Assembly (NCBI RefSeq): GCF_030815865.1
Contig: NZ_JAUSXI010000001.1
Coordinates: forward strand, 4,340,001 to 4,404,000
Length of the DNA: 64,000 nucleotides
Direction of reading: 5' to 3'
DNA from: Arthrobacter globiformis
GTDB lineage: Bacteria > Actinomycetota > Actinomycetes > Actinomycetales > Micrococcaceae
This document shows positions 1 through 30,521 of the stretch, in pieces (the first letter of the stretch is position 1; the number at the start of each line of letters is the position of its first letter). A program made the translations under genes and the position numbers. A model generated the notes under the pieces. That model was not told where the DNA came from, searched no databases, and saw nothing but the letters and a program-made list of their open reading frames with translations.

Positions 1-2059
1 CGCGGCCGGCGATGGTTGACATAGTGTTCCAGCCGCCGCCCACCCGGACGCGCGGCAGCCAGCTGCTGCGTCCGTTGCCCGGGTACAGCCAGAGGGTACC
101 GGCGCTGTCGCGGGCAAGGAGGTCTGCTCTCCGGTCGCTGTTCATGTCGCCCGCTCCCACCAGGGCGGTCATCACGTTCCAGCCGCCGCCCACCCGGACG
201 CGCGGCAGCCAGCCGCTCCGGCCGTTGCCCGGGTACAGCCACAGAGTTCCGGCCGTGTCCCTGGCGAGCACGTCGGCCTTGCCGTCACTGTTCATGTCGC
301 CCGATCCCACGAGCGAGGTCATCACGTTCCACCCGCCGCCCACCCGGACGCGCGGCAGCCAGCCGCTCCGGCCGTTGCCCGGGTACAGCCACAGAGTTCC
401 GGCCGTGTCCCTGGCGAGCACATCGGCCTTGCCGTCACTGTTCATGTCGCCCGATCCCACGAGCGAGGTCATCACGTTCCACCCGCCGCCCATGCGGACG
501 CGGGGCAGCCAGCCGCTCCGGCCGTTGCCGGGATACAGCCACAGCGTGCCGGTGCTGTCCCTCGCCACGGCGTCGGCCTTCCGGTCGCCGTTCAGGTCCC
601 CGGTGGGCACCAGCATGGTGATGCGGAGCAGCGCCGCGGCGGCATCCAGCAACCCGGCGCCGCATCCCTGCGGGCAGCCGCCGGGGATGGCCCTGGCAGT
701 GCGCTGGAGGCGTGCTACGACGGCCGCCGGTGTCGCCGTCGGGCCCATCTGGGCCATGAGAAGTGCTGCGGCAGCGGAAATGTGCGGTGCTGCTGCGGAC
801 GTCCCTTCCGCGTAGGCGTAGTTCTCGATCTCTGGCGTTGAAGGATCGTCGTGCGTCAGGGACGGGATCCCGCCTGACGGATCAGCGGACATGTCGCCCC
901 CGGGGGCGGTGATGTCGACGCCGGGCCCGAAGTTAGAGTACGGCGCCAGGGCGCCGCTGGGGCCGCTGGCGGCGACGCTGACCACGTTCCGGCAGTTGGC
1001 GGGGGTGGAATTGGAGGCCTGCGTCATCTCGTTGCCGGCTGCCGCAACCACAACGGATCCCCTGGCCGTGGCGGTATCAACCGCGTCCTGGAAGGCCTGC
1101 GGGCATGTTGGCAGCAGTCCGCCGAGGCTCAGGTTGATCACCCGGGCCGGCGTCAGGTTGGGCGGCACTCCGTCCACCGGGGCTCCAGATGCCCAGAGGA
1201 CGGCATCCGCGATGTCCGAAGTTTGCCCGCCGCAGGGTCCCAGCACGCGGACCGGCAGAATCTTCGCTTTGGGGGCGATGCCCGCGATGCCCTCGTTGTT
1301 GCCTGCGACGGCGGCGATGATGCCCGCCACGTGTGTGCCGTGCCAAGAGGACGGCATTGCGGCTGATCCGTCAGCGCACTGCCCGATGTCTGTCGAGTCG
1401 CCCATGTCCGTGGCGTCGGGGTCACGGCCGTCGTCGTTGTCGCGGGCATCTTCGGAATTGGTGATCATGTCGTAACCGGACAGCATGTTCGCGTCCAGGT
1501 CAGGATGGCTGGTCTTGCCGGTGTCGACGACGGCCACCACCTGGCCGGCACCCTGGGTGACGTCCCACGCCCGGGTGGCTCTGATGCCGGCGGTTTCCGA
1601 AAACAGGTTCCACTGGAGGGGGTAGAAGGTGTCTTGCGGGTCGGCGGCTTTCGCCTGCAGCTTGATGTCGGGTTCGGCGTAGGCGACGGCAGGGTCCGCG
1701 CGGAGCGAGGCGAGCAGTTTCTCAGCATCGCCGTCGCCCAGTTCCTTGCTGGTGCGCACCACACGCGCTCCGCCGGCCGTGGCGCGGAGGTCCTTCGCCG
1801 TGGCCCCAAGCCTGGCGGCCGCCGTGCTGAAGGACCGGGCGCGGAGCGCGGATCCGGACCGCGCCGGGTCCTTGAACTTCACGATGAACTGGTCCGTGGG
1901 CGGGGTGACAACCGAGGGCGTGCGGGGGATGGAGGGCAGCGGCGGTGTCCGGTCATCGGCCGCCGATGCAGGGGGCACGATGACGGCAGTGGCCACAAGA
2001 GCGGCGATGCCGGCAGACGTCATGAGGGCAGAAAAGCGTGTTCGGCGCATGACAAACAT
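1..2059 (-). CDS. Secreted subtilisin-like S8 serine protease with C-terminal five-repeat domain (3' end beyond window)
   Basis: Reads leftwards and runs off the left edge. ATG at 2059 is preceded by AGGATGG five bases upstream; ATG at 2068 and 2050 are alternatives. The first ~35 residues form a signal peptide ending PPASAAD. An inhibitor-like propeptide is followed by the S8 catalytic domain: Asp179 in VVDTGK, His240 in SSWHGTHVAG, Ser421 in EGTSAAAPH, and the oxyanion Asn region in AAAGNE. After the protease come 50-residue FG-GAP/VCBS-like units (DxNxDxxAD...LWLYPGNG...GGGWN), four complete and a fifth cut at position 1. Same architecture as the protease at 26091-30521, but without the Ig and 77-residue repeats. 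Probably an exported, self-processing protease carrying a binding domain; the substrate is unknown. Confidence 0.9.
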   Translation of the reverse strand, partial: MFVMRRTRFSALMTSAGIAALVATAVIVPPASAADDRTPPLPSIPRTPSVVTPPTDQFIVKFKDPARSGSALRARSFSTAAARLGATAKDLRATAGGARVVRTSKELGDGDAEKLLASLRADPAVAYAEPDIKLQAKAADPQDTFYPLQWNLFSETAGIRATRAWDVTQGAGQVVAVVDTGKTSHPDLDANMLSGYDMITNSEDARDNDDGRDPDATDMGDSTDIGQCADGSAAMPSSWHGTHVAGIIAAVAGNNEGIAGIAPKAKILPVRVLGPCGGQTSDIADAVLWASGAPVDGVPPNLTPARVINLSLGGLLPTCPQAFQDAVDTATARGSVVVAAAGNEMTQASNSTPANCRNVVSVAASGPSGALAPYSNFGPGVDITAPGGDMSADPSGGIPSLTHDDPSTPEIENYAYAEGTSAAAPHISAAAALLMAQMGPTATPAAVVARLQRTARAIPGGCPQGCGAGLLDAAAALLRITMLVPTGDLNGDRKADAVARDSTGTLWLYPGNGRSGWLPRVRMGGGWNVMTSLVGSGDMNSDGKADVLARDTAGTLWLYPGNGRSGWLPRVRVGGGWNVMTSLVGSGDMNSDGKADVLARDTAGTLWLYPGNGRSGWLPRVRVGGGWNVMTALVGAGDMNSDRRADLLARDSAGTLWLYPGNGRSSWLPRVRVGGGWNTMSTIAGR
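20..620 (-). repeat. 150-bp coding tandem repeats (four complete 50-aa units)
   Basis: The unit starting ATCACGTTCC recurs at about 20, 170, 320 and 470, a strict 150-bp period that keeps frame. The units beginning at 170 and 320 are almost identical at base level, including synonymous positions, which points to recent duplication or gene conversion. Each encodes one VCBS-like unit of the protease. Confidence 0.9.
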
Positions 2060-3041: not shown

Positions 3042-4562
3042 TCAGGGCCGTCGGCCCCTGAGCCGGCCCACGACATGGGCGCTTCGACGGAGCACCGACG
3101 CCATTCTGAATGACCGCGAGGAAAAAATGGCGTCGCGTTCACGACTTAGTTCGGCGTGGCTTCGGGCAAGAGCATCGCGCTCGGACCTTACATCGTCCAG
3201 TTCGGTCCATAGGCGCCCGATGCTGCCGCTCAGGGTGCGGAACAGGGTCCGCTGCTCCCTGGCCTCCCGGGACCAGGAGCCTTTTGCGGTCAATTGGGTT
3301 ACTTCGGCCAAGCCGGCGGGAGTTTCCGTTTGCGCGCCCGTAAGCACCGCAGCCACGCCGTCCCACCACTCCTGCTGGCTTTGCACAGCGCCGGGGAGCG
3401 CCTGCGCGAGATGCTGGCGGACTTCCTCGCGTCGCAACCAAGCCTCCGATATCCCACTGTCCATTGCCCCGGATGCAAGGCTGGGGAGGGGAAGGGACCA
3501 GTCCCCCAGCCCCCAGTTCCCCATGGCTCCGTGCAAGCGGACATCTGAATAGGCATCGTTGGATACGGCGACCACTGGCACCCCTGCTGCCAGACCGAAG
3601 ACAGCCGGGTGGTAGCGGTTTGTCAGTACGAGTTGGGCCGCTTTGGTGATTGACGCCGCTTCACCCACCGGGAGCACGGGGAGAGTCGTGAGGCGGCCGC
3701 TGCGGGAATTCTCGATGAGGATTCGGTGCGAATCATGGTCGCCACCCGAGTCGTCGGACCCGAGGGGACCCATGTGGGGAAGGAGGTACACGGGGAGACC
3801 GGTCAGATCAGCGGCACGGTCGAGGATCGCGGCCAGCGCCGGGAGGTTGTTGCTTCCTTCCCGCCACGCGTCGGGGCCGAATGTAGCCGCGATGTACTGC
3901 CCATCCGGCAGTTCCGTTCGCTGCGGGCCAGTCTGCGCATCCACCTGGTCCGACGCAGGACCCATCTCAATAAAGCTTCCGTCGTCGAGAACCCTCACCA
4001 ATCTTTCAGGTTCCAGGCCAAGTTCCAGCCCCAAAGCGTGGGACGAGGGCTCGCGGGCCCCTACGAGGGTGGCGGAGACCAGCAGCTCCTGAAGAACGGT
4101 ACGGTCCTGCGGCAGCAGCGCGGGCCCGAACGTCTGGCCACTGACCACCAGTGGCTTCCCCAACTGTTTCGCGATAAGCGCGACGGCGGCACGTTCATAC
4201 AGCAGCCAGCCGAACAGGGAGTTCATGTTGCCCCCGCCGGCTATCAGCACGCCGTCGGCCTCCCCGATCGCTTCGATCACTGACCAAGTATGGTCGGCGG
4301 AAAGCAGGGCCGACCGGTCACCAGCAGCGGCCCGCCGGACCAAATCGAGATGGCGGGCCCGTTCCGCGGGCGGCCAGGGAAACTCGACGGTATGGGCAGC
4401 GCCCACCCCGTAGAGCCGCGATGTCTGTGCCGGGTCGCGGGACAGCAGGACAAACTCGGCGTCCATCCGCTTTTTCAGCTCGTCCACAGCGGCGACTGTC
4501 ATGGCCTCGTCCCCTACGTGGTACGCAGCCTGACCGAGATCCCCTTGCACAACAATCTTCAC
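3042..4562 (-). CDS. Polysaccharide pyruvyl transferase family protein
   Basis: Starts GTGAAGATTGTTGTGCAAGG, preceded by AGAGGACA. The 506-residue product has the two-domain layout of the PS_pyruv_trans family (CsaB/WcaK/ExoV): an N-terminal GD(L)GQAAYHVGDEAM loop, a central ADGVLIAGGGNMNS, and a C-terminal VLTNRYHPAVFGLAAGVPVV motif, with the conserved His typical of the family. The last ~70 residues are a charged coiled-coil (ELDDVRSERDALARSHAELS) and a basic tail, as in some cell-envelope glycosyltransferases. Likely transfers pyruvate from phosphoenolpyruvate to a wall or surface polysaccharide in the cytoplasm. It sits beside a glycosyltransferase and an SLH-domain protein; SLH domains in Bacillus and Paenibacillus bind pyruvylated wall polymer, which makes a CsaB-like role attractive but unproven. 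A hairpin (3043-3060) overlaps its stop codon. Confidence 0.85.
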   Translation of the reverse strand: MKIVVQGDLGQAAYHVGDEAMTVAAVDELKKRMDAEFVLLSRDPAQTSRLYGVGAAHTVEFPWPPAERARHLDLVRRAAAGDRSALLSADHTWSVIEAIGEADGVLIAGGGNMNSLFGWLLYERAAVALIAKQLGKPLVVSGQTFGPALLPQDRTVLQELLVSATLVGAREPSSHALGLELGLEPERLVRVLDDGSFIEMGPASDQVDAQTGPQRTELPDGQYIAATFGPDAWREGSNNLPALAAILDRAADLTGLPVYLLPHMGPLGSDDSGGDHDSHRILIENSRSGRLTTLPVLPVGEAASITKAAQLVLTNRYHPAVFGLAAGVPVVAVSNDAYSDVRLHGAMGNWGLGDWSLPLPSLASGAMDSGISEAWLRREEVRQHLAQALPGAVQSQQEWWDGVAAVLTGAQTETPAGLAEVTQLTAKGSWSREAREQRTLFRTLSGSIGRLWTELDDVRSERDALARSHAELSRERDAIFSSRSFRMASVLRRSAHVVGRLRGRRP

Positions 4563-4661
4563 TTAGATGTCCTCTTCTGGCCCGCGGCGCATGGATGGTC
4601 GACGGCAGGCTGATACACACCTGTCCCATGGACAGGGCCAATAAGATTTGAAACAGGCGAA

Positions 4662-4684
4662 GAACCGGGCACAACGCCCGGCTC
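4662..4684 (-). terminator. Hairpin terminator downstream of the GT2 gene
   Basis: GAGCCGGGC and GTGCCCGGTTC (minus strand) form a 9-bp stem with a short loop 17 bases after the glycosyltransferase stop, followed by a weak T-containing tract. Separates this gene from the pyruvyl transferase gene. Confidence 0.55.
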
Positions 4685-4700
4685 CTCAGTGGGCTGGCCC

Positions 4701-5691
4701 CTACCTCTGAAGCAGGCGGTCCTTCAGCCGGCGGTAGCGACGGCGCAGCAGACTTACGAGGCTCGCGTCGCTGATGGCCTCCTCCAGCAGGCGAAGCCGC
4801 TCCTCGGACCGGGCGGAGCGGTCGATGAGCTCCCGGAGCAGCCCCTCGGAGTAGTTTTGGCGGTTGTGGAAGTGATGCGCTTCCGTGTCCTGGTGCTTGG
4901 TGACGTACAGGAGAGCACCCAGGCCGGCCTCGGAAACGTGACTGCGCAGGTGCTTCTCGCGCACGGCGCGGTCGAAGTCCTGGTGCGCGGTGTCCGAGAC
5001 AATGACGCTGTTACCGAGGTCCCCGGTGGATTCGCGGCGCTGGTGCCAGAAAGCCAGTGGCTCGCCGTCGATGAAGCCGATCCGGTGTGACTGCAGAACC
5101 CGCAGCTGGAACTCCCAGTCGCCCACCACGTCCAGGTCCTCGTCAAAGTAGCCGACCTCGTCATGGAGCGCCCGGCGGTAAAGGAGCGAGATGGGCACGC
5201 ACCGGTTGTGCCGCAGCGTGTCGAAGAGTGTGATGGCGCGGATGTCCGCGCAGAAGATCTCGCGGCTGATCTCCTCGACGCCCGCGCCGACGATCCGCTC
5301 ATAGACGATCTCGGTGCGGACGGCGGCCCCGGCGTCATCCGTGGCGTCCAGGTGCGCCACGGTGCGGGCGAGGAAGTCCGGGTGCCACTTGTCGTCGTCA
5401 TCATGGACAGCGATGTAATCGGAGTTCGAGGCCTTGATGCCGGCGTTGGAAGCCGCTTCCATGCCCCGCCCCACCTCGTGGTGGATCACCAGTACCCGGC
5501 TCGCCAAGTTCGTCGCTGTACTTCTCGACGACGGGGTCCACTTCGCTGGTCCGGCCGCCGTCGTTGACCAGCACCAGGAGCCAGTCCGTGAAGGACTGGG
5601 CCAGCACGTCGCGGATGGCACGGTCCAGGAGCAGGGAGCGGTTCCTGGTCCGCATGACGATTGCCACACGGGCGGAGGGCGTGACTGTCAT
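4701..5691 (-). pseudogene. Family 2 glycosyltransferase, frameshifted at about 5506
   Basis: ATG at 5691 gives MTVTPSARVAIVMRTRNRS, the GT2 nucleotide-binding start, continuing to VVEKYSDEL. One extra T on the coding strand (A at 5506/5507) then breaks the frame; removing it joins directly to ASRVLVIHHEVGRGMEAASN, then the DDDDKWHPDF metal-binding region and DVVGDWEFQLRVL. With the repair it is about 330 residues, full length for a GT-A transferase, ending in a basic arginine/leucine helix. Would add a sugar to the same surface glycan as the neighbouring pyruvyl transferase. The single-base lesion could be a sequence error. Confidence 0.8.
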
Positions 5692-5892: not shown

Positions 5893-8800
5893 CTAGGGCA
5901 CGGGCTCTGTCCTCACTTGGACGGGCGAATAGGCAGCAACCGTCGTTCCGTTACCGAGCTCGCCGTAGGAATTGCCGCCCCAAGTCCACAGGTATCCACC
6001 GTCCAATATGGCGGCCCCTCCACCCGGCGCGACATCGACGCGAATCGTACCGGCCAAGCCTGGTAGCTTCCGCGGTAGGTACGAATCATCACTACCGCCC
6101 ACACCTAGTCGTCCGCCATCATTCCTGCCCCACGCCCAGACTGTGCCGTCTATGCCGACAGCAAAGGCACTCATGTCGAGAGATGCAATCTGTTGGACCA
6201 CCCCCAGACCATCCACTTTATTGGGCGTGAAGTCGCGCAAGGTTGTGGCCGGGGTAGCTCGTTGTCCCCGCTGGTTAGAACCCCACGCCCAAACTGTTCC
6301 GTCCTTGGCAAGAGCAAGGGTCCCGCTACCATCCATGACCGCATCCTCGATGGCCGGGAGCCCTTCAACGAGGCGAGGTGCTAGTTGCGTCGACTGAGTT
6401 GTTTCGAACGGCGCCATTGTACTATCCCCCCAGCACCACACCGCTCCGTCTGATCCGATAGCCGTCAATGCGCTGCCGTTGATCGCTACCTTATTGACCC
6501 CGACTGGCCCAACGACCGTGTTGGGCACTCGTGAGTCCGTCGTGGTGCCGTCGCCAAGCTGGCCGAAGTAGTTCTCCCCCCAGGCAAGGAGCGACCCGTC
6601 AGTGCGGATGGCGACGGCAACCCGACCATCGCTGGAAATGCTGCGAACGGCTGTGGCCCCCGCGACTGGTATGGGCGTGGAACGGGCAGTAACTGTTCCA
6701 TCGCCCAAGAGGCCCGTTTCGTTTTGGCCCCAGGCCCAGACCGAACCGTCAGTTCTTATTGCAAAGACCGTTTCCAGCCCGGCGACGTCGGCCACGGCGG
6801 AAAGGCCCTCGACTTTGACCGGAGTAGCTGATGACCGTCCGAGAGGGTCTGACCCCCAAAACCATAGCGATCCATCAGTTTTGATCGCATATACAGCCCG
6901 GTTGAGGACGCGCAGCAACCGGACGTCCGCGATTCCGCTAACTTGCCGTGCGAACAGCGACCCGGTTTGACTGTTGTTGGCCTGCCTCCCACCCCATTGC
7001 CAGACGGTCCCGTCGTTCTTGAGAGCAACCCGCGACATCCAGCCACCAGCGACGACTTGAGCCTCGGAGAAGGCTCCGCTGACAGCAATGGATATAGGCA
7101 AGACCGTCTGTGTCTCGGCCCCCTCGCTGTCAGCCACCGCAACGGTCACAGACCTGGTTCCTTCCGCGGTAGGAGTTCCGCTAATGGTGCCTGTTGCGGC
7201 GTCGAGTCTGAGTCCTGCCGGTAGCGTCCCCAAACTGACCCGCCAAGAGTAAGGAGCTGTTCCTCCTGTAGCGGACAGTTGGACGGAGTATGTCCTCCCT
7301 GCGGTGCCCTGAGGTAGCTGGGTATTCGTAATGGAAAGCTTGGGAGCTTCCGCGGGCAAGTCGGCACCGGGGAAGGTGGTGGCATAGTCCCATTGCCAGG
7401 TTTTGATTCTCCAGGTGTAGTTGCCACTGACGATTACTGCGTCGAGCAGTTTCTTTTCAATGATGGGAACGGTGAGTTCGACGCCGATGATGACGTCGCC
7501 TCTGATGTAAAGGGACGCGTCGACTCTGTTTCCGGTCGTGGCCATGGTGATCGATGCGGAGGCACCCGCCTGCGCACCGATTGTCAGGGTAGGCCCGGCG
7601 AAGCCGTAGATTAGGAGACTTGCCTTGAGGGTGGGTCCGAATCCGGCCTCGATCTTTCCGGTCACAGCGGCCGTGCCGTTCGGCCCGAACACCGGCGTGC
7701 TGAATTTAGTGACCGGGCCGGTGTCCACGCTTCTGAAACCGCCGTTGGATGAGTAGCGGACGCCGAAGTCCTGGCTGCGCTCAACCCCAAGATCCACCGT
7801 CAGGGACGTCGCAGCCGAAAAATTGGCTTCGAGGTAGACGGTGCCGCCCGGCCTGATCACGACAGGAATCGTGAGGACCATGAAGGTGATAGGCGCCATC
7901 TTGAGTGTGGCGAGCTCGTGTTTCATGCGGTTGTTGGTGGCGGTTTTCAAGAACGCACTCGCTGTGGCCTTTGCGCTCATCTCCGTATGCACGATCGTTG
8001 AAAATTCTTCAATTTGCACCTGGGGCCCGCCCCAACCCCAATGAAGGTTGGTCCTAAGGGTGAAGGTCAGAGTGAACCCGACTTTCGCTTCACCGCTGAG
8101 TGAGACTCCGGCTGATGAGGCGATCGTGGCCTTGGCCTTCTGAATCGTCGATTCGGGCGTCTTGCCGAACGATAGGCAGCCTTTGACGGCGTCGCAGGTA
8201 ATCGTGTCCTTCAACGCAATGTGGCTTGCGAATTGGAGGCTTTCGTCGATTGTCACCGCGAGGGGCGCTATCCCGGCAGGCCGGAGTGATTGCGCCGTCA
8301 TTCTTGCCGGCGCCGCATTGAGGGGAACAACTTCGGCATCGGTCCAGCTGGATGTGGCTGTATCGGTGTAGGTGTCCAGGGACACGTCTGACCCGGTCTC
8401 TACCGTTGCAGCGGCAATTCCTTCGTCCTGCACCGTGAGTCCCGGGGAGTTGTCGCCGTCGGCCCCTGTTTCAGCGGTGGCCAGTCCCCTGCTGCTATCC
8501 AGGGGCACCTCCTGGCTGAAATCAACCTGCAGGAACACATCAGCCAGCGTCGCCGGGGTAGTCGTTGCCACGGTGGAACTGCCCACCTGGTCAACGGCCG
8601 ATACTTGCCGCAGCAGACCGTCCGGGGCTGCGGCGCTGGGTCCTTCGACGATGATCTGGCCAACCGCCAGGTCCGGGCTGTTGGCCACCGTCACCGAGGT
8701 GGGAGTGACAGACTGCACGGGGTTCACCGCCTCGTCCAGCTGCACCGCATCAGGTGAAATGATCTGCGTGGAAACTGTCGGTAGAACGGCGTTCACCAGG

Positions 8801-10791: not shown

Positions 10792-11004
10792 GATTCCCCC
10801 AAATCGGCGCCGCTCAAGGGCGCAACAGCAATCCAAGCAGACCCTCTACCGGTCCGAAGTCCCAGGCGGGCCCGGCAACCTTGTGAAAACGGAGAAGAAT
10901 CGGGATCAGGCTACAGCTCTCACAACCACACCCATAAGCCCAAACACCGGGAATCCAAATATGACGTGAGGGCCTCCGACCCGTTAGCCGCAGTGGCGCC
11001 GGTC
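10792..11004. promoter_or_regulatory. Upstream region of the SLH gene
   Basis: About 210 bases between two minus-strand genes. Must carry the SLH gene promoter; no clear -35/-10 pair or operator was identified. Confidence 0.3.
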
Positions 11005-19322: not shown

Positions 19323-20018
19323 CTAGAGTCCCACCGAGCTGGTGAACTTCCACAGCGGCACAACGTTCTTGCCCTGCAGTGAGGTGTCGTCTATGCCAGC
19401 TGGCAGGGTCATCGCGAAGCACAGGTTCACGGGTGCCCCGGCCTTACCGGCGTCACCTGCGGGGAGGGTAAGGGGAACGTTGCTGGTCTGGCTTAGCGGC
19501 TTGTTCGGCCCCACCAGGACCGTCCCGGCGGACTTGTCACCGCCGGCGCTGCAGTTGGCAGCGTCGAGGCCGGTCCAGGCCCGGTAAACCAATGCGTTGT
19601 ATAGCGCGGTACTGTTGGCGTTCCCGATGGCAGGGTCGGTTGCCTGAAGGGCGTCCGTCAGTTTTGCCGTCAGCGTTTCGGATCCGGCCTTGGCGCGGAG
19701 CTGGAACGGGGCGTAGACAGTGTCACCCGGCAGCATGCTTGCGGCGCTCACCGTGAAGTCGAGGCCGCCACCGTTCGGGTTCGGCTTGTGAGTCCATGAC
19801 TCCTCGGCAAACGGGGCCAGGGTGTTCTGTTCCATCGCGTAGGTCTTGGTACCGGGGGTGTCGTTGGGTCCGGCACCACCGAAGACCCACTCGTTATCGG
19901 TCCAGGCCGCGAGCGTGAATGCGGCCCCTACTCCGAGGACCAGTCCCGAGGCCAGAAGGGCGCGGACTTTTCCGGGGCGCCCAGCAGATGTCGACAGTGC
20001 GGCGGCGCGGACAGGCAT
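19323..20018 (-). CDS. SipW-dependent secreted TasA-like protein (cassette 2)
   Basis: ATG at 20018 follows GGGGGAAATC; the frame is open further up but lacks a ribosome site. 231 residues. Leader with GLVLGVGAAFTLAAWTDNEW, cleavage region AAWTDNE. Mature domain has AASMLPGDTVYAPFQLRAKA, like the LPGDT motif of TasA-type beta-sandwiches, and Cys residues in AANCSAG and NLCFAMT. First gene of the second cassette, upstream of its peptidase. Confidence 0.82.
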   Translation of the reverse strand: MPVRAAALSTSAGRPGKVRALLASGLVLGVGAAFTLAAWTDNEWVFGGAGPNDTPGTKTYAMEQNTLAPFAEESWTHKPNPNGGGLDFTVSAASMLPGDTVYAPFQLRAKAGSETLTAKLTDALQATDPAIGNANSTALYNALVYRAWTGLDAANCSAGGDKSAGTVLVGPNKPLSQTSNVPLTLPAGDAGKAGAPVNLCFAMTLPAGIDDTSLQGKNVVPLWKFTSSVGL

Positions 20019-20544
20019 GATTTCCCCCATGAACGGTTGGCTTGGACTTCCGGTGCGGAAGCTGTAACCACCGTATGGTTGCTGTGCGCAACTTTCGATC
20101 AACATCGGATCAACAAAGCCCAAGGATTGGCACAGCAAAATCTTGAGGTCAAACGATGTGGGCGTACCCGGCATGGGAGTCACTCCCGTGACTCCCGGGC
20201 GGGTGCACCTGAACCGGGCGGGCACGCTGGGCTACTCGACAGAGGGAACAGTCACCCTCGGGCGGATGCTCCAGTCGCTGCCTCAGCTTGTGGCTCCGCG
20301 AAGATACCCTTCTCGTGGGACTGAGGGGACTGAGGCGTATCGGCCACCGGGCCGCGCGCCCCCTGTTGTGGCAATGACCGCCCATTCTATCCGCGCCGAT
20401 GGGCGCCAGCGGCCAACTGTTTTCTTGCGCTAATCGTGACGAAGTCCTGCTTCCTCGCTGGGGGTAGCCGCCGCAGACCTTGATCCGGGCAACGCAGTAT
20501 TGGCTACAGACAGCCAACCAGCAGCGAAGACGAAGGAGCCGAAA
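20019..20544. other. Intergenic region upstream of cassette 2
   Basis: About 525 bases. A plus-strand open frame (20143-20433) has the short protein-like stretch GTLGYSTEGTVTLGRMLQSL but no start signal or relative in the window. The cassette 2 promoter must lie near 20020-20100. Nothing else recognised. Confidence 0.4.
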
Positions 20545-20862: not shown

Positions 20863-21838
20863 TTAATTGGCCACCAGACTATTCTCAGGCTGAGGTGTGT
20901 CCGCCGCCGGGCCGCCGTCCGAGCCCCTGTTTCGGAGCCGGGCCTCTACAGGACGCTCAAAGAAGGTGTAGGCGGCGCCGGCAAGCGGGATGGACACAGC
21001 AATTCCGGCGACGGCGAACATGACGCGCTCGGCAAGGCTCGCCGGGCCGAGTTCCAGGGCTGTCCGCAGAACGGGCTCGTGGACCAGATACAGGGCGAAG
21101 GACCATTTCCGCAGTTTCACCATGGCCGGGGAACTGGCGAACGTGGGGCGCCCTCCGCAGCGGTCACGGTCCGCATAGGCACCAACCAGGAGGGCGAAGC
21201 CCGGGATGCAGAGCGCGCCCGCCAGCGGTCCGGCCTGATGCCATGGTGCGATGCCGTCGACGACTTCGAGAATGCACGGAGCCGCTGGCGGCGGCAGCAC
21301 CCCACACCGAACCTGGGCTTCCAGCCTTTTCTCATGGCGATGGCCAGGCACACACCCACGATGAACTCTGGATCCTGAACGCGGGAAACGTGTAGAACAG
21401 GGCTCCCCAGTCAAAACCGGGGACAAGGCCAGCAGCACGGACACGAGAGCAACAGCGGCGACGAAAACCGCGGCGCCGACGCGGAAGAGTCTCCCCGCTT
21501 CAAGGCGTGAAAGCCGTACGGCCAGGAACGGGAACACCGCATAGAAAAACGCCTCACACGAGAGCGACCAGGACACCCCGTCATAGGCATAGACCCACTG
21601 CTTGTCCCCGAGCCAGCCCTGCATAAGGAGCAGCGAGGCCAGAAGCTGGGAAACCGACTGGTCCCCTTGAGTGGCGAAAACCAGGACGACGGCGGCCAAC
21701 GCCGTGAGCGCATGCAGCGGCCAGATCCGGGGTACATCTCGGGCACAGCGTCACCGACGCGTGATACAGGACCGCGAGCATGGCGGCGATGAACCGCAGT
21801 CCTGTCAGCGAATCCAGCCGGGTATGCGAAACGTTCAT
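20863..21838 (-). pseudogene. Decayed acyltransferase-3 gene (third copy)
   Basis: Begins MNVSHTRLDSLTGLRFIAAM at 21838 and ends RNRGSDGGPAADTPQPENSL-VAN at 20863, near-identical along most of its length to 11005-12108. About 190 bases encoding FFFLLSGFVLAW through RRFARI are deleted near 21735, and there are further frame breaks around 21250-21420 (small deletions before LEVVDGIAPWH). Not functional. Confidence 0.88.
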
Positions 21839-22153
21839 CCTTACTCCGAGTATGACGGCAATGAAGCGTCAAGTTCACCGGCGGAAAAATAGCACCGCAT
21901 TTCGCTCGAGCCTGAGGAATTGCGTGGGCGACAGCGCCGCAACAAATGGACCGCCGTCAGCCCGGCCAGCGGCAACATCACGGTGGTCCTGGCAGGCAGG
22001 GCCACGCTGGCCATCTTGGTTCTTGTCATGCTGCATGCAAAGGAAATGGGCGGAAGAATGCACGCACCGCGTACCGCGGAGATTACCGCTATCATTCGGA
22101 AAGTCATCAATGAATTTGTCCCGCGGAAGCCTGCGGTCATTTGGGGGATCCTA

Positions 22154-23743
22154 ATGCTAAAACGACTCGTCGCCACGTTGTTTGCCACAGCCCTGGTTGG
22201 CGCCGGGCTCGCACCCGCTGCCGTTGCAGACGCCTCGGGCTGTACCCGGAACGGAGAATTCGAGGCCATTTCGTATACATGCAGCGGACAGAACATCGAT
22301 CTGTCTCAGGTGCCCACTGATGCAACTAAGCTGCGCACCAGCGGGCACGTTCAAGACTGGACCGCTCTTGGAAATCTGACGTCCCTAAAAAGTCTCAGTA
22401 TCGAAGGGGCCATGAACGATGACGTCGCAGCCATCCATAACGCTGCTCCTTCTGTTGATGGGATCAGCCTGGAGGGGCCTGCGATCACGGACCTCTCCCC
22501 TCTCTCCGCTCCGGCAATGTCGTGCTCCGATTCGAAGCCTTGCGTGTCCGGGATCAAGCTAGTGATCCCGGGCGTGAAGGACATCTCCCCGCTGTCGAAT
22601 CTGAATTCCGGGGGATGTCTGCCTGTGGATTGCGTGCGCTTTCTCACAATCGATGCACCTGCCGTTACCGATTTCTCACCATTGGGTTCCATCCAGAATC
22701 TCAGCTCACTGACTGTGAGCGCTTCCTCGGACGCTCGTGAGCAGCACGTCATTTTGTCGGCGTTCCCATTGCCGAACTACAAGGGGCTCAACGGTTCGCA
22801 GCTGATGGCAGCCCACGATCCCGGCTGGCCTTATCCGCAGCACACCCTCCAAGGCTCGACAGCTCGCGCAACCTATTACGCAGAGGGGTGGGTCGATTAC
22901 TTCGTCTGGCCTCTCGCGCAGTCAACCGGTTCCACGACCCTTGAGACCTACGGCACCAAGGTGGAGGCCTCGGTCTCACGAACCTACACTGTCACCAAGC
23001 CCGCCAGAGGTGACTTCAACGGTGATGGCAGGTCGGACCTTCTAGCGAAGGATTCCACGGGGGTCCTATGGCTCTATCACGGAACCAACAAGGCCACCCT
23101 GCCAACGAGAACGCGCTTGGGCGCGGGCTGGAACTCGATGACCATGATCGCGAGTCCCGGAGACTTCAACGGGGACAGCAGGGCAGACGTTCTGGCGAGG
23201 GACACCGCGGGTGTTCTTTGGCTGTACCCCGGGAACGGCAAATCCGGGTGGGGCACGAGAGTTAGGTTGGGGGCCGGATGGAACGTCATGACCGCCCTCG
23301 TCGGCGCCGGGGACTCCAACGCTGATGGCAAGGTCGATCTGCTGGCGCGCGATTCTGCCGGAGTTCTCTGGCGCTATCCAGGCAACGGCAAGGGCGCACT
23401 GCTTCCGAGGATCAGGATCGGCGCGGGCTGGAACACGATGAATTCCATTGTTGGTGGAGACTCCATGGGAATCGACCACATCGCCGACGTGATCGCGAGG
23501 GACTCAACTGGAACCCTGTGGTTCTACCGCGGCAACGGCCAAGGTGGGTTCCTTCCCCGCAGCAGGCTGTACACCGGGTGGAAGGGCATGACCGCCATAG
23601 CGAGCCCAGGTGACTTGGGCGGCGACGAAGACTCCGACCTCTTGGCCCGCGATGCCAGCGGAGTTCTGTGGCTGTACCGCAATCCTGGCCTGCCAGCTGT
23701 CCGCATCGGGGGCGGCTGGGCTGGCATGAAGGCCATCGTCTGA
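22154..23743 (+). CDS. Secreted leucine-rich-like protein with C-terminal five-repeat domain
   Basis: ATG at 22154 follows GGGGGATCC; the frame is open to 21920 but that part lacks a leader. 529 residues. Signal peptide MLKRLVATLFATALVGAGLA, cleaved after AVADA. Residues ~35-250 hold irregular leucine-rich-like turns (LTSLKSLSIEGAMN, ITDLSPLS, VKDISPLSNL, VTDFSPLGSIQNLSSLTVS) reminiscent of internalin-type repeats. Then exactly five ~50-residue FG-GAP/VCBS-like units with DFNGDGRSDLLAKD and GAGWNSMT motifs. Likely an exported adhesion or recognition protein. Only plus-strand member among the four five-repeat proteins here. Confidence 0.82.
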   Translation: MLKRLVATLFATALVGAGLAPAAVADASGCTRNGEFEAISYTCSGQNIDLSQVPTDATKLRTSGHVQDWTALGNLTSLKSLSIEGAMNDDVAAIHNAAPSVDGISLEGPAITDLSPLSAPAMSCSDSKPCVSGIKLVIPGVKDISPLSNLNSGGCLPVDCVRFLTIDAPAVTDFSPLGSIQNLSSLTVSASSDAREQHVILSAFPLPNYKGLNGSQLMAAHDPGWPYPQHTLQGSTARATYYAEGWVDYFVWPLAQSTGSTTLETYGTKVEASVSRTYTVTKPARGDFNGDGRSDLLAKDSTGVLWLYHGTNKATLPTRTRLGAGWNSMTMIASPGDFNGDSRADVLARDTAGVLWLYPGNGKSGWGTRVRLGAGWNVMTALVGAGDSNADGKVDLLARDSAGVLWRYPGNGKGALLPRIRIGAGWNTMNSIVGGDSMGIDHIADVIARDSTGTLWFYRGNGQGGFLPRSRLYTGWKGMTAIASPGDLGGDEDSDLLARDASGVLWLYRNPGLPAVRIGGGWAGMKAIV

Positions 23744-23808: not shown

Positions 23809-25928
23809 TCAGCTGATCGAGGTCATCACGTTCCAGCCGGCACCGATCCTCGTTCGCGGCCCGTATTCGCCCCGGCCGTTTCCAGGGTAGAACCACAACA
23901 CACCGCTGCTGTCCCTGGCCACCACGTCGGCCCAGCCGTCACCGATCCAGCCGGAGTTTCGCAGCCTTTCGCTGTTGAAGTCTCCGGTGCCGACAACCGC
24001 CGTCATGGCATTCCAACCCGCACCCACCCGCAGCGGATAACGCAAGCCGCCTGCGCCATCCCCTGGGTAGAACCACAGCACGCCGTTCCGGTCCCGGGCC
24101 AGCAGGTCAGCCCTGCCGTCCCGCATGCGGTCCTCAGCTGGCGTGATGGCAGTCATGGGGTTCCAGCCGCTGGTGACCTTCATCCGGGTGGGAAAGGCGC
24201 CGTCGCCGTTGCCCCGGTATGACCACAGCGCACCCCCGCCGTCCCGTGCCAGCAGGTCCGCTTTGCCGTCGTCGTCAAAGTCTTCGGTGGCGGCGAGGGC
24301 CGTCATGACGTTCCAGCCGCCGCCAATCCGCGCCCGGGTCCCGAACGTGCCTTTGCCATTGCCCGGATAGAACCACAGCACGCCGCTGCTGTCCCTCGCC
24401 AAGGCGTCAGCCTTGCCGTCGGTGTTCAGGTCCCCGGCGCCGGCGATCACGGTCATGACATTCCAGCCGCCGCCCACCCTCGTGCGCGTCAGAAAGGCGC
24501 CCTTGCCGTTGCCCGGTAGAGCCAGAGCACACCGCTGCCGTCCCTGGCCAACACATCGGTCCGGTCGTCGCCGTTGAAGTCATTCCGCATAGCGGGATAA
24601 CCGAAGGCCGGTCCCCGGCCCAAGTCATATCGGGCCCAGCCGTACAGTCCCGACGGCGCTGGCTTGACGGGTCCCATCCAAAGTGGTTGATCCAGCCCGT
24701 TGCAACCAGGTCCCCGTCAGGTGCCAATACCGCACCAGCCACGTACGCACCCCCTTCGGAGAAAGCCGACATGACCACCCCGCCTGTGCCGAAGGTTCTG
24801 TCCAGAGTCCGGTCTGCATCCAGCCGCATCACTGCGAAGGAAGTCACTCCGTGCAGCGTCTGGTTTCCTGTGGCCAGCACTCTGCCGGCTCCGTCGATCT
24901 GGAGGCTGACGATCTGCATATCCAGGGGAGGCGAAGATGTCTGAAACTTCCCGTCGGCACCGTACCCGCTGATCCGCCAGTCCTGGGCCACAACGGTCCT
25001 TCCGTCCGGAGAGACCGCCACCTCGTAACCTGTGGAGGCAAGGGGAACTGAGCCGGCCAGGCCGAAGGTAGCATCCAGCCGTCCGTCGGGCAGGAAGCGA
25101 AGCAGGCGCCCCTGGAAGCCGCCAACTCCTCCCGCCACGACCACTCGTCCGGCACCGTCGACTGCCATGTCTTCTGCAGCCCAGCGGATGTCGGGGTTTC
25201 CAGGATCCGCCGGGAACTGGTCGAAGCTGGATGCCAGGACCCCTTCGGCCGTGTAGCGCCAACCTGCTATTTTTTGTCTCAAGGTGTCACCGTCGGACAT
25301 CTGCACGGCCCCGGCCACCGCTATGGTTCCATCCGCAGCAATGCCGACGTGGCTGAATATAGGTTCTTGCCAGGGATTGTTGTCGTTGCTGCCGCCAGGA
25401 ACTGCAACTCCGGACGCGCCAAAGGTCTCTTCCAGAGCACCTCGCTCGTCCAGGCGCATCATCTGATGGCGGCTCAGCACCAGTACTTTGCCGTCGTCCT
25501 GGACTTCTACGTCCAAGACGTCCGGGGGTACAGACATCGTCCCGTCATCCTGGAATCCGTCGTCCGACACGTCCGGGAGGGACGTAAACATCACCACGCC
25601 GCCTTCGCCGAAAGCCGGATCCAGTTCCCCGTTCGGAAGCAGACGGATCACCAGGACAGGGGGCAAGGACAGGTCCTGGAGCAACCCAACGGTCACAGTA
25701 CGCCCGTGCGGATCTACGTCGGCAGCAACGGCCCCCACGCCTCCGCCGCCCAGATCGAGCACGGCTCTTCCCCGCTCGCCAAAGGAATCGTCCAAGTAAG
25801 GCGTATCTGCGGCTACGGCCGCGGGCGGAGCAACAAGACCCGCCACCGCAAGCGCTCCTGCGCACAGCAGTGCGAGAAGGCCGTTCCTCAGCGAGTGAAC
25901 CGGCGCCGATAGGTCAGAAGCGAACATG
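23809..25928 (-). pseudogene. Secreted delta-60-repeat protein with five-repeat domain, two frameshifts
   Basis: ATG at 25928 follows GGGGGACAGC. Signal peptide ends PPAAVAADTPYL. The first ~420 codons carry delta-60 repeats (LDPAFGEGGVV, LEETFGASGVAV, LDATFGLAGSV, LDRTFGTGGVV). One base is missing near 24680, after GWINHFGW, and another near 24515, where CCCGG should be CCCGGG within LWLYPGNG; with both restored the protein runs into five ~50-residue VCBS-like units (DFNGDDRTDVLARD to GAGWNVMTSIS). Both lesions are single bases, one in a homopolymer, so sequence error is possible. If real, the binding domain is lost. Confidence 0.8.
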
Positions 25929-26040
25929 CTGTCCCCCAAAGCATCCGCGGGCTGTTATCAACGAACAGTAACAACGGCGCGGCCCGGCAACCAACGCACT
26001 TCGGCAGGAGTGCAAACTAATACCCACAACTTAACGCGAA

Positions 26041-26090: not shown

Positions 26091-29000
26091 TCAGTTCCAG
26101 CCGGCGCCCATGGATGACCGGCCCAGCCAGTTTCCGGCACCGTTGCCCTTGTACAGCCAGAGCACGCCGGCAGCATCGATTGCCAGGGCATCGGTCCTGC
26201 CGTCGCTGTTGAAGTCGCCGCGGCCTGCGATGGTGCCCATGGCATTCCAGCCACCACCGGTGCTGGTCCGCGACGCGAAAGCGCCCCGCCCGTTGCCGCG
26301 GTAGACCCACAGGATTCCGCTCCGGTCGCGAGCCACAATGTCAGCCTTGCCGTCACCAGTCAGGTCACCGGGACCGACGACGGCGGTCATCACGTTCCAG
26401 CCGCCCCCCACCCGGCTCCTGGTCAGCCAGCCGCCACGCCCGTTCCCCGGGTACACCCACAACGTGCCAGCCGTGTCCCGGGCCAGAACGTCCGACTTTC
26501 CGTCACCGTTCACATCACCCGGCCCGACAATCGAGTTCATGACATTCCAGCCGCCACCCACCCGGATCCTGGCCAGCCAACCGCCGCGCCCGTTACCCGG
26601 GTACACCCACAGCGTCCCGGCAGAGTCACGGGCGAGCACATCGGCCTTGCGGTCCCCGTTCAGGTCGCCTGCTCCGACGAGCGAGTTCATGACGTTCCAG
26701 CCGCCGCCCAGCTTTGTGCGTGCGAGCCATCCCCCGCGCCCGTTGCCCGGATACAGCCACAAAGTTCCGGCGCTGTCGCGGGCGATCAGGTCGGCCTTCC
26801 CGTCGCTGTTCAGGTCACCCGCGGGTACAACCAAGGTCATGCGGAACACGGCCTTGAACGTCGCGGACCAGGATGCAACCGCGCCGGCCTTCAGGACGTA
26901 GTCCGTCTTAGCTTTCGCGGTGACGCTGACCGTTCCTGCCCCGGCATAAGTCCCGGCAGCAACCGCCTTGCCGCCGACCAGATACTCGACACCCTCCATG
27001 ACGGGCACCGTGTAGGTGTCCTGAGCGGTACCGTCCTTGTCGGTGAATACAACGGCAGCCGGTGTCACTTCGAATGGGGTCGCCTTGAACGTCGCCGTCC
27101 ACTCAGTGACCGCACCGGAATTGACGACGTGATCGGTCTTCGCCCGTGCCGTCACAGTTACGGTGCCGGCGCCCCGGTAGGAGCCCGCTTCGACGACCTT
27201 CTCCCCGACCAGGTACTCCACACCCTCAGTCTCGGGAACGGTGTAGGTGTCCTCCGCGGTGCCGTCCTTATCTGTGAACACCACCGCAGCCGGTGTCACC
27301 TCAAACGGGGTCGCCTTGAACGTCGCAGACCACTCCGTCACAGCACCGGCCTTCAGGACGTAATCCGTCTTCGCCCGCGCACTCACCGTCACCGTACCGC
27401 TACCCGGGTGGGCGCCGGCTTCGACGACCTTGTCCCCGACCAGGTACTCGCTGCCCTCAACGGCCGGGATCACGAAGGCATCCCGTGCCGTGCCGTCCTC
27501 GTCCGTGAACACCACGGCCGCCGGGACCACCTCAAACGGGGTCGCCTTGAACGTCGCCGTCCACTCAGCGACCGCACCGGCCTTGACAACGTAGTCCGTC
27601 TTCGCCCGCGCCGTCACCGTCACCGTACCGCTGCCCGGATGGGCGCCGGCTTCAACGACCTTCTCCCCGAGCAGGTACTCCACACCCTCAGTCTCAGGGA
27701 CGGTGTAGGTGTCCTCCGCTGTGCCGTCCTTGTCGGTGAACACCACCGCCGCCGGGACCACCTCGAACGGGGTGGCCTTGAACGTCGCGGACCACTCTGT
27801 GACAGCACCGGCCTTCAGGACGTAATCGGCCTTCGCCCGCGCACTCACCGTCACCGCACCGCTACCCGGGTGGGCGCCGGCTTCAACGACCTTCTCCCCG
27901 ACCAGGTACTCCACACCCTCAGTCTCGGGAACGGTGTAGGTGTCCTCCGCGGTGCCGTCCATATCCGTGAACACCACCGCAGCCGGTGTCACCTCAAACG
28001 GGGTCGCCTTGAACGTCGCCGACCACTCCGTCACAGCACCAGCCTTGACCACGTAATCGGCCTTCGCCCGCGCACTCACCGTCACCGCACCGGAGGCCGG
28101 GTACGTTCCGGCTTCGACGACCTTGTCCCCGACCAAGTACTCCACACCATCCGTGGACGGGACCGTGTAGGTGTCCTCAGCGGTTCCATCCTTGTCCGTG
28201 AACACAATGGTTTGAGGCTCCACGTCCTGCAGGATAGTGGATGTGGCCGCACTGGTGCGTGTCTCACTGCGATAGCCGAGTTTGGTGCCGGTGATAGTTA
28301 CATGCAAGTTGTGCCCGCGATCTTCGGTGCCAACCTCGTATGTGGCGTTTGTTGCACCTTTGATGGCAGATTGTGAGTGGAACCACTGGAATGTGTGTGT
28401 CACAGGCGAAGGCGTCCAGTCGCCTAGCTCCGCTATCAGAACGCGCCCGACGCGAGGCGTGCCAGTAACGACAGGCACAGGAGAACCCGTGAGCAGGCCA
28501 GGCGCTACTGCGCTCGTTGACGGTGAAGTAGCAGATACGCTGTCGGCCTTGGCACTGCTGCCGGTGACCGTGACTGCCAAAACAGCACCTAAGTCTGACG
28601 GCGGAACGCTGTAGGTTACCTCGGTAGCGCCTTGAATTTCGACGCCGTTCTTGGTCCATTGGTAGGCGAATGCAACGTCCTCGGGTACCCATTGCCCTGT
28701 CTCAGCTGTCACAGTATTGCCCACAGCTGCGCCACCCGTAACCGTTGGTTCACCGGGTGAAATCGAAAAAGACTCGATTGGTCCAACGGGGGCTGAAATC
28801 CGGGAAGCCGTAACGTACCGGCTCTTCGTACCCGTGACCTTCACGCTGATCAACTTGCCGAGTTCAGAGGCACCGGGGGTGAACGACGCGCCTATCTCAT
28901 TCGGCAGAGGATCCCCGTCCGCTAACCACTGATAGCCAAGCGTGACCGGCGCCGGTCCCCAGGTCCCCGGCTCCACCGTCAAGGTACGGTTGACTGCCAC

Positions 29001-30521
29001 AACGCCAGTCACGGAGGGCGAGCCAGCAGTCAATTCCGGATCAGGCCGAACTGCGGCTCCGGCGTTGACGATGGGAAGGGATGGCGGGCAGACGGTCCCG
29101 ATGATGCAGGGGGAGCCAGAGAAGCGGACGGTCGCTTTTAGTCTTTCTTCAATGTAGGACGGGGTCGCCTTCTCACCGAGATTGGCCACCAACATGGCAG
29201 CAACGCCTGCCACGTGCGGGGCCGCCATAGACGTGCCTTGCGAGAAGTAGTACGCCTCCGCTCCCGGCGATGTCACGCCTTCGTTCAGAGTGGACGCGAT
29301 ACCGTTTGATGCACTCCAGCTCATGTCCCCGCCGGGGGCCATGACGTCAACTTCTGGTCCGTAATTCGAATACGGGGCGCGCTGGGCGTTGCGCGTGCTG
29401 GCGCCAACGGTAATTACGTTTTGGCAATTCGCGGGGCTAGATTCAGCTGCCGGACGGTTCTCGTTACCAGCGGCGACTACCACTGATGCCCCGCGCGAAA
29501 CGGCGAAATCTATGGCGGCCTGGTAGGTCTCAGAGCACGTGCCGCTGCCGCCAAGACTGAGATTGATGACTTGGGCGGGGTTAATGTTTGCGGCGGTCCC
29601 TTCAACCAAACCTCCTGCCGCCCAAATGATGGCGTCAGCAATGTCAGAGGTGTATCCGCCGCAGGCTCCCAAGGCCCGTATCGGCAGAATTTTTGCCTCC
29701 GGCGCGACGCCGGCTACGCCACTGTTGTTGTCTGTCACCGCCGCGATAGTTCCGGCAACATGAGTACCGTGCCAAGAAGACTGCCCGGCTACAGAGCCGT
29801 CATAGCACTGGCCAGCCCCTTTCCAGTCGCCCGGATCGCGAGGATCCGCGTCCCGCCCATCGCCGTCCCGCGTCAGGAACGGATTCCAGATCATGTCGTA
29901 ACCCGGCAGAACGTTCGCATTCAGGTCGCTGTGGTTCGTGATGCCAGTATCAACGACGGCTACGACGACGCCTTCGCCTTTGCTGACCGTCCACGCTTCC
30001 GGCACTCGCATGCCACCTTGCGATTCAAAGAAATCCCATTGAAGCGGAAAAAAGGTGTCATTGGAGGTCTCGATGGACATAGGCCTCATGACCAGGTCGG
30101 GTTCTGCGTATTCCACATCCGGGTCAGCCCGAAGAGCACCAAGAAGTGCTCGGACCTGATCAGTGGACAGCTTCCGGTCGGCCCGAAGTACACGCGCTCC
30201 GGACGGTGTCGCACGCAGATCCTTCAGCGCAGCGCCGACCTTTGATCCTGCGGCAGCATAGGAACGGCCACGCTCAACCGCACTTATTCGTGCTTTATCC
30301 TTGTACCTGACGATAATCTGCTCCGTCGGTACATCCGCTGACTGGGGAGACATCGGTATGGCGGGCAGTGTTGGCTCGTCGGCCACGGCTGGAGGGGCGA
30401 ACAGTCCGCCGCCGATGAGAGCGCCAACGGCGGCCAAAGTTAAGTGCGGGAAAAACCGTGCTCGCGGCAGGCCAATCAATAGAACCGTCCTAAGGTCGTG
30501 CGTCGACCACAGACGAGTCAC
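26091..30521 (-). CDS. Giant secreted S8 serine protease with Ig-like, six 77-aa and five 50-aa repeats
   Basis: 1476 residues from GTG at 30521; a TTG at 30479 with AGGACGG upstream is an equally good start. Leader ends LFAPPAVADEP. I9-like propeptide, then the S8 domain: Asp191 (VVDTGIT), His251 (SSWHGTHVAG), Ser431 (QGTSMAAPH). Next, three Ig-like modules (GTWGPAPVTLGYQWLADGD type, about residues 510-770), six ~77-residue tandem repeats (VFTDxDGTAEDTYTVP..., residues ~770-1230) and five 50-residue VCBS-like units to the C-terminus. Beads-on-a-string architecture of an extracellular protease projecting from the cell. Same protease-plus-five-repeat plan as at 1-2059. Confidence 0.92.
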   Translation of the reverse strand: MTRLWSTHDLRTVLLIGLPRARFFPHLTLAAVGALIGGGLFAPPAVADEPTLPAIPMSPQSADVPTEQIIVRYKDKARISAVERGRSYAAAGSKVGAALKDLRATPSGARVLRADRKLSTDQVRALLGALRADPDVEYAEPDLVMRPMSIETSNDTFFPLQWDFFESQGGMRVPEAWTVSKGEGVVVAVVDTGITNHSDLNANVLPGYDMIWNPFLTRDGDGRDADPRDPGDWKGAGQCYDGSVAGQSSWHGTHVAGTIAAVTDNNSGVAGVAPEAKILPIRALGACGGYTSDIADAIIWAAGGLVEGTAANINPAQVINLSLGGSGTCSETYQAAIDFAVSRGASVVVAAGNENRPAAESSPANCQNVITVGASTRNAQRAPYSNYGPEVDVMAPGGDMSWSASNGIASTLNEGVTSPGAEAYYFSQGTSMAAPHVAGVAAMLVANLGEKATPSYIEERLKATVRFSGSPCIIGTVCPPSLPIVNAGAAVRPDPELTAGSPSVTGVVAVNRTLTVEPGTWGPAPVTLGYQWLADGDPLPNEIGASFTPGASELGKLISVKVTGTKSRYVTASRISAPVGPIESFSISPGEPTVTGGAAVGNTVTAETGQWVPEDVAFAYQWTKNGVEIQGATEVTYSVPPSDLGAVLAVTVTGSSAKADSVSATSPSTSAVAPGLLTGSPVPVVTGTPRVGRVLIAELGDWTPSPVTHTFQWFHSQSAIKGATNATYEVGTEDRGHNLHVTITGTKLGYRSETRTSAATSTILQDVEPQTIVFTDKDGTAEDTYTVPSTDGVEYLVGDKVVEAGTYPASGAVTVSARAKADYVVKAGAVTEWSATFKATPFEVTPAAVVFTDMDGTAEDTYTVPETEGVEYLVGEKVVEAGAHPGSGAVTVSARAKADYVLKAGAVTEWSATFKATPFEVVPAAVVFTDKDGTAEDTYTVPETEGVEYLLGEKVVEAGAHPGSGTVTVTARAKTDYVVKAGAVAEWTATFKATPFEVVPAAVVFTDEDGTARDAFVIPAVEGSEYLVGDKVVEAGAHPGSGTVTVSARAKTDYVLKAGAVTEWSATFKATPFEVTPAAVVFTDKDGTAEDTYTVPETEGVEYLVGEKVVEAGSYRGAGTVTVTARAKTDHVVNSGAVTEWTATFKATPFEVTPAAVVFTDKDGTAQDTYTVPVMEGVEYLVGGKAVAAGTYAGAGTVSVTAKAKTDYVLKAGAVASWSATFKAVFRMTLVVPAGDLNSDGKADLIARDSAGTLWLYPGNGRGGWLARTKLGGGWNVMNSLVGAGDLNGDRKADVLARDSAGTLWVYPGNGRGGWLARIRVGGGWNVMNSIVGPGDVNGDGKSDVLARDTAGTLWVYPGNGRGGWLTRSRVGGGWNVMTAVVGPGDLTGDGKADIVARDRSGILWVYRGNGRGAFASRTSTGGGWNAMGTIAGRGDFNSDGRTDALAIDAAGVLWLYKGNGAGNWLGRSSMGAGWN
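26100..26840 (-). repeat. Five 150-bp coding repeats (50-aa VCBS-like units)
   Basis: Same 150-bp period and unit as at 20-620, seen on the plus strand as TTCCAGCCGCC(G/A)CCCA recurring about every 150 bases. Encodes the last five units of the protease. Confidence 0.85.
26850..28240 (-). repeat. Six 231-bp tandem coding repeats (77-aa units)
   Basis: AACGACC-TTCTCCCCG and neighbouring sequence recur with a 231-base period (e.g. 27653 and 27884). Units differ in a few codons (TAEDTYTVP, TARDAFVIP, TAQDTYTVP), and several neighbours are nearly identical at third positions, so expansion is recent or homogenised. Confidence 0.88.

Follow-up and report, generated by a model that had tools for sequence, protein, structure and literature searches.

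Four proteins encoded in a 64,000-nucleotide stretch of DNA (the window, G000:C1:4340001-4404000 of a single-contig genome of 5.11 Mb) each end in five copies of a unit of roughly 50 residues with the consensus DxNxDGxxDLLARDxxGxLWLYPGNGxGGxxxRxRVGxGWNxMTxI. We conclude that this unit almost certainly forms one four-stranded blade of a VCBS/FG-GAP_3-type beta-propeller, and that five blades close one C-terminal ring, a structure that is predicted rather than solved. Probably, this ring serves as a multivalent lectin that would dock unrelated front ends on a cell-surface polysaccharide. Judged by its relatives, the host seems to be an Arthrobacter-like actinobacterium, and signal-peptide-like N-termini are visible by eye in the translations.

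The four arrays are not chance resemblances, because their matches to the Pfam family FG-GAP_3 (PF13517) score 70.8-101.4 bits, far above the cut-off of 26.9. An earlier note on this DNA had reported five copies in each of the proteins P2, P3 and P4, and four plus a truncated fifth in P1, and a hidden Markov model (HMM) of the unit places them accordingly. The adjoining genome sequence (L047) completes copy 5 of P1, which therefore also has five, with HMM anchors at residues 491, 541, 591, 641 and 691 of the L047 protein and a stop codon some 130 bases to the left of position 1. Copies are spaced by 50 residues in P2, P3 and P4 except at the last step of P3, whose copy 5 carries an insertion of about 10 residues. 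The proteins and their parts are as follows.

2-2068, minus strand: P1, its C-terminal end cut by the window edge
1..616, minus strand: P1 propeller, copies 1-4 whole and the first residues of copy 5
653..1552, minus strand: P1 front end, peptidase S8 (residues 173-472; PF00082, E 9.7e-55)
21920-23743, plus strand: P2
21920..22993, plus strand: P2 front end, weakly leucine-rich-like (E 0.005 for the internalin model of NCBIfam)
22994..23740, plus strand: P2 propeller, five copies, ring predicted to be closed by a C-terminal strand (HMM; AlphaFold2 model)
23809-25939, minus strand: P3
23812..24600, minus strand: P3 propeller, five copies, the first of them divided between two frames near 24510
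24601..25939, minus strand: P3 front end, delta-60 (DUF5122) repeats, most of which lie in a third frame (PF17164, E 1.3e-11)
26091-30521, minus strand: P4
26094..26834, minus strand: P4 propeller, five copies, the chain stopping right after the last GW
29127..29978, minus strand: P4 front end, peptidase S8 (residues 182-465; PF00082, E 2e-59)

Domain matches bear out the earlier description of P1 and P4 as S8 proteases and of P3 as a delta-60 protein, the latter also through TIGR02608 (E 9e-31, 105.5 bits, cut-off 76.5). The leucine-rich-like character of P2 is backed only weakly, with 15.5 bits against a cut-off of 1050 for the internalin model (E 0.005); the P2 reading frame is open from 21893 and its true start codon is uncertain. 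P3 is not a single open frame. Its front end, the start of copy 1 and the remainder lie in three different frames (24410-25939 and 23809-24600, minus strand), with one change near 24510 and the other upstream of the array, which marks either a broken gene or sequence errors. Unbroken relatives seem to exist, such as P0109, in which DUF5122 and FG-GAP_3 occur together in one protein.

A genome-wide search using a profile built from 28 units of the same genome recovers nine proteins. Eight of these carry five copies and the ninth, L051, carries ten; the five encoded outside the window match PF13517 at 112.5-155.9 bits. The fixed count of five proposed earlier stands in that the number does not vary freely, and needs amending for the ten copies of L051 and for exceptions among relatives. 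As had been suggested, the module is shared by unrelated front ends, with Pfam and NCBIfam domains that differ between the proteins. Those outside the window are:

L048: no Pfam match, TIM barrel-like by eye
L049: haem peroxidase, RTX repeats and fn3 (Pfam)
L050 and L052: Ig-like domains (Pfam)
L051: weak reprolysin-like metallopeptidase (Pfam)

Counting in fives extends to relatives. Three protein searches with differing length limits were made, from the P1 region (set 1, the best 120 of 4,277 matches), from the P2 domain alone (set 2, the best 120 of 808, with permitted lengths that fit 3 to 8 copies) and from the P4 region (set 3, the best 120 of 2,948, of which 40 had been counted before and were dropped, leaving 80). 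Set 1 holds 14 proteins with five copies, 100 with ten and one with 15, besides three with 9 and one each with 11 and 14. In set 2, 101 proteins have five copies, and the others have 3 (two proteins), 4 (12), 6 (three), 7 (one) or 8 (one). Set 3, for which only clusters of at least three matches were counted and which includes the L049 protein itself (as P0289), yields 35 with five, 41 with ten, three with 15 and one with 20. Because the sets share some members and high-scoring proteins are favoured in the lists, these proportions are not population estimates; moreover, the counting profile was retrained on relatives that include some of the very sets later counted. Among 53 arrays at actinobacterial loci of the genome collection, 41 have five copies and two have ten, the remainder having 9 (six), 4 (two), 3 (one) or 1 (one). 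Three genomes of the genus, each in one or two contigs, contribute 25 arrays of five, three of ten and two of four (n = 30).

Larger arrays are also divided into fives. In the ten-copy proteins of sets 1 and 2 (n = 100), all 47 inter-copy gaps of at least 62 residues follow copy 5, as do eight of the nine long gaps in the ten-copy proteins of set 3 (n = 41). Longer spacings occur after copies 5 and 10 in P0004 (15 copies) and after copies 5, 10 and 15 in P0241 (20 copies).

The ends of the arrays are complementary. The chains of P1 and P4 end directly behind the final GW, and a strand (for example MLVPTG or LVVPAG) precedes their first copy; we read the P4 ring as closed by this N-terminal strand. 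In P2, L049, L050 and L052, the N-terminus lacks such a strand and the chain continues instead to, for example, MRVIS or MNALSS. A closure motif applied to 153 five-copy arrays (P3 left out, and 36 of 189 arrays dropped because their last blade lacks GW) finds the N-terminal strand alone in 25, the C-terminal tail alone in 124, both in none and neither in four (Fisher p 7e-25, a value that counts related rows as independent). This motif was written after seeing a first, untidy test based on a score threshold, in which the corresponding numbers were 21, 79, 42 and 15 (n = 157). Exactly five strands of this kind are required to close a ring, whereas an open array has no such requirement, and the complementary termini therefore support a closed ring. 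Furthermore, an AlphaFold2 model of P2 (22970-23740) has 20 strands that read as five times four, and is neither open nor seven-bladed. The earlier proposal of a closed five-bladed propeller is therefore upheld by the counts in fives, the linkers after copy 5, the complementary termini and this one model.

One argument for that proposal does not survive. The period of about 50 residues had been taken as a sign of five blades, and we counted copies in a control of 37 open frames from 35 non-actinobacterial loci, chosen among weak P4-domain matches rather than as a random sample, with the profile retrained on them. Runs of 5 (five arrays), 6 (four), 7 (15), 8 (four), 9 (one), 10 (two), 12 (three), 13 (four), 14 (five), 21 (one) and 28 (two) were found, mostly sevens and near-multiples of seven. 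The counting method is thus able to detect sevens. Spacing is 49-50 residues in many of these arrays and 51-62 in others, and since those at 49-50 are mostly sevens or near-multiples of seven, the period does not separate five blades from seven and was rejected as evidence. These sevens, together with the assignment to FG-GAP_3, are what would favour a seven-bladed or open FG-GAP array in which the five seen in the window is a chance count. However, copies come in multiples of five in all nine proteins of the genome and in most relatives, linkers follow copy 5 and AlphaFold2 returns a ring of five, so that such an array is strongly disfavoured and, in our estimate, very improbable. The contrast that had been drawn between a five-bladed type and FG-GAP proteins likewise falls away, as the arrays are by sequence VCBS/FG-GAP_3.

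Some observations count against the five-bladed ring as a rule. Structural modelling of the ring covers a single window protein, by one model. Exceptions occur: some proteins have 9, 11 or 14 copies, others, from set 2 and the loci, have 1, 3, 4, 6, 7, 8 or 9, and the exceptions include a genuine-looking four-copy protein, L156 (G039:C1:80000-87500). Streptomyces UmbA lectins include six- and seven-bladed families (PMC13274773), so five is no rule for all actinobacterial propeller lectins. Several of the exceptions were inspected by eye, and 10 of the 17 listed for set 2 have no initial methionine and may be fragments. In L148 and L073 the HMM missed one degenerate copy each, giving true counts of 5 and 10. 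The four copies of L062 are nearly identical, which could reflect assembly collapse, and two of the eleven copies of P0055 are nearly identical; P0123 has four copies, the fourth copy of P0198 seems to leave the frame, and one exception locus contains a masked stretch and is uncountable. L156, in a two-contig genome, looks like a five-copy type that has lost one blade.

Two loops are conserved in 992 unique blades. The Asp loop between strands A and B, of the DxDxDG type, retains D7 in 89%, D11 in 89%, G12 in 74% and D15 in 92%, with N (45%) or D (21%) at its middle position. Loop DA' contains GW, with G45 in 90% and W46 in 95%. When the profile is compared with the PDB (40 matches with E up to 1), the UmbA structures 8w20 and 8w22 rank first (8w20, E 2.5e-27), followed by PAL, PVL, AAL2, BP39L and integrins, with the BP39L lectin (6gxr) and the integrins matching only weakly. 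The resemblance to tachylectin-2, suggested earlier with regard to size, finds no support by sequence, as none of these 40 matches is a tachylectin-2 entry. The P2 model superimposes on 8w20 at 2.8 A over 163 residues.

Each blade has a DxNxDG loop, and loops of this type bind Ca2+ in relatives. The GW loop, which would lead into the next blade, corresponds to the sugar site of relatives. The ring would dock two subtilases, a haem peroxidase, metalloprotease-like, TIM-barrel-like (by eye) and other front ends. By analogy, binding of a sugar by the ring is likely, and docking on the surface of the producer itself or of its neighbours has about an even chance of being correct. The rim adds a shared feature. 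Basic residues occupy both W-7 and W-5 in 32 of the 39 blades of the genome's own five-copy proteins (one P1 blade was misplaced and scored as a miss), in 26 of 41 from nine other Arthrobacter loci, 34 of 96 from 17 Streptomyces loci, 42 of 166 from set-3 five-copy proteins, and in 32% of 527 blades of five-copy proteins of sets 1 and 2, as against 5% of 847 from ten-copy proteins. Close kinship of the genome's own proteins may explain part of this excess, and the RxR-GW motif common to their propellers is only suggestive of the one surface glycan proposed earlier. From the relatives and the shared rim we infer the lectin function, the docking and a single ligand, perhaps acidic, for the eight five-copy proteins.

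Some evidence speaks against the lectin. N-acetylglucosamine (GlcNAc) contacts of AAL2 are nearly absent: N or D at W-8 occurs in 5% of the 39 own blades, 2% of the 527 and 6% of the 847 (W-8 and W+5 were mapped by profile alignment, W-8 with an uncertainty of about one residue), and His at W+5 is absent or rare (0 to 1.2%). Lectin function is consequently not transferable residue by residue. The own propellers are near neutral (net charge 0 to +6 in the eight computed), which lends an acidic ligand little support. The poor conservation of the AAL2 contacts would also fit a closed ring of five blades with a protein-binding role, or one that merely stabilises or spaces its front end, as would the protein-binding integrin propellers among the PDB matches; integrin propellers are also among the structure-comparison rows for the P2 model. 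We regard such a ring without lectin function as unlikely, since the best sequence matches (8w20, PAL, PVL and AAL2) and most top rows of the structure comparison are lectins or predicted lectins, and the GW motif of the sugar pocket ranks with the best-conserved positions.

The best PDB sequence match being an UmbA chain, the proteins might be thought to be UmbA-type targeting subunits of umbrella toxin particles, yet their Pfam front ends are S8, DUF5122, haem peroxidase, weak reprolysin-like, Ig-like or none, with no trypsin-like domain, and we consider this highly improbable. ALF (PF03752), sought as a mark of UmbC, has no match in the genome, but the control genomes gave none either. A bolder form of the lectin reading is doubtful, namely that the five-bladed ring is a genome-wide, non-covalent tag that would sort nine unrelated secreted proteins to one, perhaps acidic, wall polymer (the eight five-copy ones through the same rim motif), with ring size set by subfamily within a near-equal unit length: five here, mostly seven in relatives elsewhere.

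Blades within an array often resemble one another most. Across seven of the nine own proteins, the nearest neighbour of a blade lies in the same protein in 20 of 35 cases, at the same position of another protein in four and elsewhere in 11, and orthology of blades by position was rejected. Mean DNA identity among blades over 36 codons ranges from 0.56 in P2 (divergent) to 0.95 in L050 (near-identical). Recent re-amplification thus seems to have affected some arrays, whose number is five; the five blades of L050 (G000:C1:1560500-1566500) apparently represent a very recent amplification. Blade similarity gives no signal for a 5+5 arrangement of the ten copies of L051, with identity 0.36 at lag 5 and 0.34-0.38 at lags 1-4.

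The domain is patchily distributed. Of 79 loci, 44 are actinobacterial, 37 of them from Arthrobacter or Streptomyces. At E 1e-10 the P4 domain is matched in 36 of 41 genomes of the genus (own included), 18 of them by a single weak match (E about 4e-18 to 6e-12) that may be another FG-GAP protein; at E 1e-20 the P2 domain is matched in three of 60 genomes of the phylum (own, one of the genus and one of the class). Five-copy arrays with 50-51-residue spacing also occur in two non-actinobacterial records, L120 (a Verrucomicrobia metagenome-assembled genome) and L112 (a record titled Candidatus Cyanaurora vandensis), and may reflect transfer, mis-binning or independent fives.

The window holds further features. 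Between the S8 part and the propeller of P4, some six repeats, each roughly 70-80 residues long (VFTDKDGTAEDTYTVP...), can be seen by eye (~26860-28090, minus strand). Another type of propeller occurs in a large and probably surface-located protein that combines SLH domains with He_PIG and RCC1 repeats (5893-10836, minus strand); its gene adjoins those for a polysaccharide pyruvyl transferase and a family 2 glycosyltransferase (3042-5669, minus strand); SLH domains bind pyruvylated wall polymers. Two related Acyl_transf_3 genes lie at 11005-12108 (94.5 bits) and 20863-21699 (34.9 bits), both on the minus strand; the latter is shorter and only just exceeds the cut-off of 31. What look like broken flagellar genes occupy 12235-13412 (plus strand), where a frame with Flg_bbr_C and Flagellin_N matches (12235-13263) overlaps an open frame at 12864-13412. 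A cluster at 13713-20225 (minus strand) encodes a member of the camelysin family (PF12389) together with a protein like signal peptidase S26, which scores slightly below its cut-off (22.6 against 22.9 bits), and we take the cluster to resemble matrix-fibre loci.

Among known systems, seven-bladed propellers of the PVL/integrin type differ from these arrays, whose counts run in fives and whose model is five-bladed. The fungal GlcNAc lectins PVL, PAL and AAL2 share the VCBS unit, the Asp loop and the GW loop and are sequence-profile matches, whereas AAL2 has seven blades of about 56 residues against five of about 50 here, and its GlcNAc specificity depends on Asn/Asp at W-8 and His at W+5 (PMC4483166), neither of which is kept. 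Repetitive VCBS propellers vary in blade number, with a median of 6 (PMC9218822). Tachylectin-2, like the proteins made in the study of its evolution (PDB 5c2m; PMC4735018), is a further comparison: it has the five-bladed fold that is predicted for the arrays. An Asp-rich AB loop is, however, missing from propellers of the tachylectin type (PMC8023676), and here the Asp positions are kept in about nine of ten blades. VCBS, integrin-like and tachylectin propellers form one supercluster, in which uncharacterised actinobacterial 'VCBS actinolectins' have been named (Pereira and Lupas 2021, PMC8023676). Those proteins are actinobacterial and secreted, as the window proteins seem to be, in a VCBS supercluster connected to tachylectins, and their combination of TIM barrel and propeller has a counterpart here in GH25 (PF01183) relatives; they are reported as a single propeller or TIM barrel plus propeller, in contrast to the subtilase, delta-60, peroxidase and other front ends found here. 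The rule of counting in fives and these Arthrobacter proteins appear in no title or abstract of the literature searched, which excluded subscription papers and supplements.

The closest counterparts are the UmbA lectin domains of Streptomyces umbrella toxins (5BP1-5BP12; PDB 8w20/8w22), which are likewise C-terminal, form five-bladed families and have VCBS-like units. The UmbA5 lectin is five-bladed, 12 families are five-bladed, four six-bladed and seven seven-bladed, and the ligand of the six-bladed UmbA4 is teichuronic acid (PMC11062931, PMC13274773). UmbA has its own front end, trypsin-like without a full catalytic triad, which binds UmbB, whereas subtilases and others are found here. The window arrays are best classed as five-bladed VCBS-type rings that appear not to be UmbA proteins, with strict actinolectin membership unproven. 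A tail common to many secreted proteins makes the idea of a wall-docking tag directly testable, and the fives here against mostly sevens elsewhere, at near-equal unit length, offer a natural system for studying what sets blade number. In soil actinobacteria, many secreted proteins whose annotation stops at 'FG-GAP repeat' or 'hypothetical' become interpretable as a front end followed by a single five-bladed ring or several. Five-bladed VCBS-type lectin rings were already known from Streptomyces (PMC13274773); it is the counting in fives and their use as a common tail on many proteins that are instructive, and the present proteins carry such rings beyond the subunits of umbrella toxins, into what soil actinobacteria ordinarily secrete.
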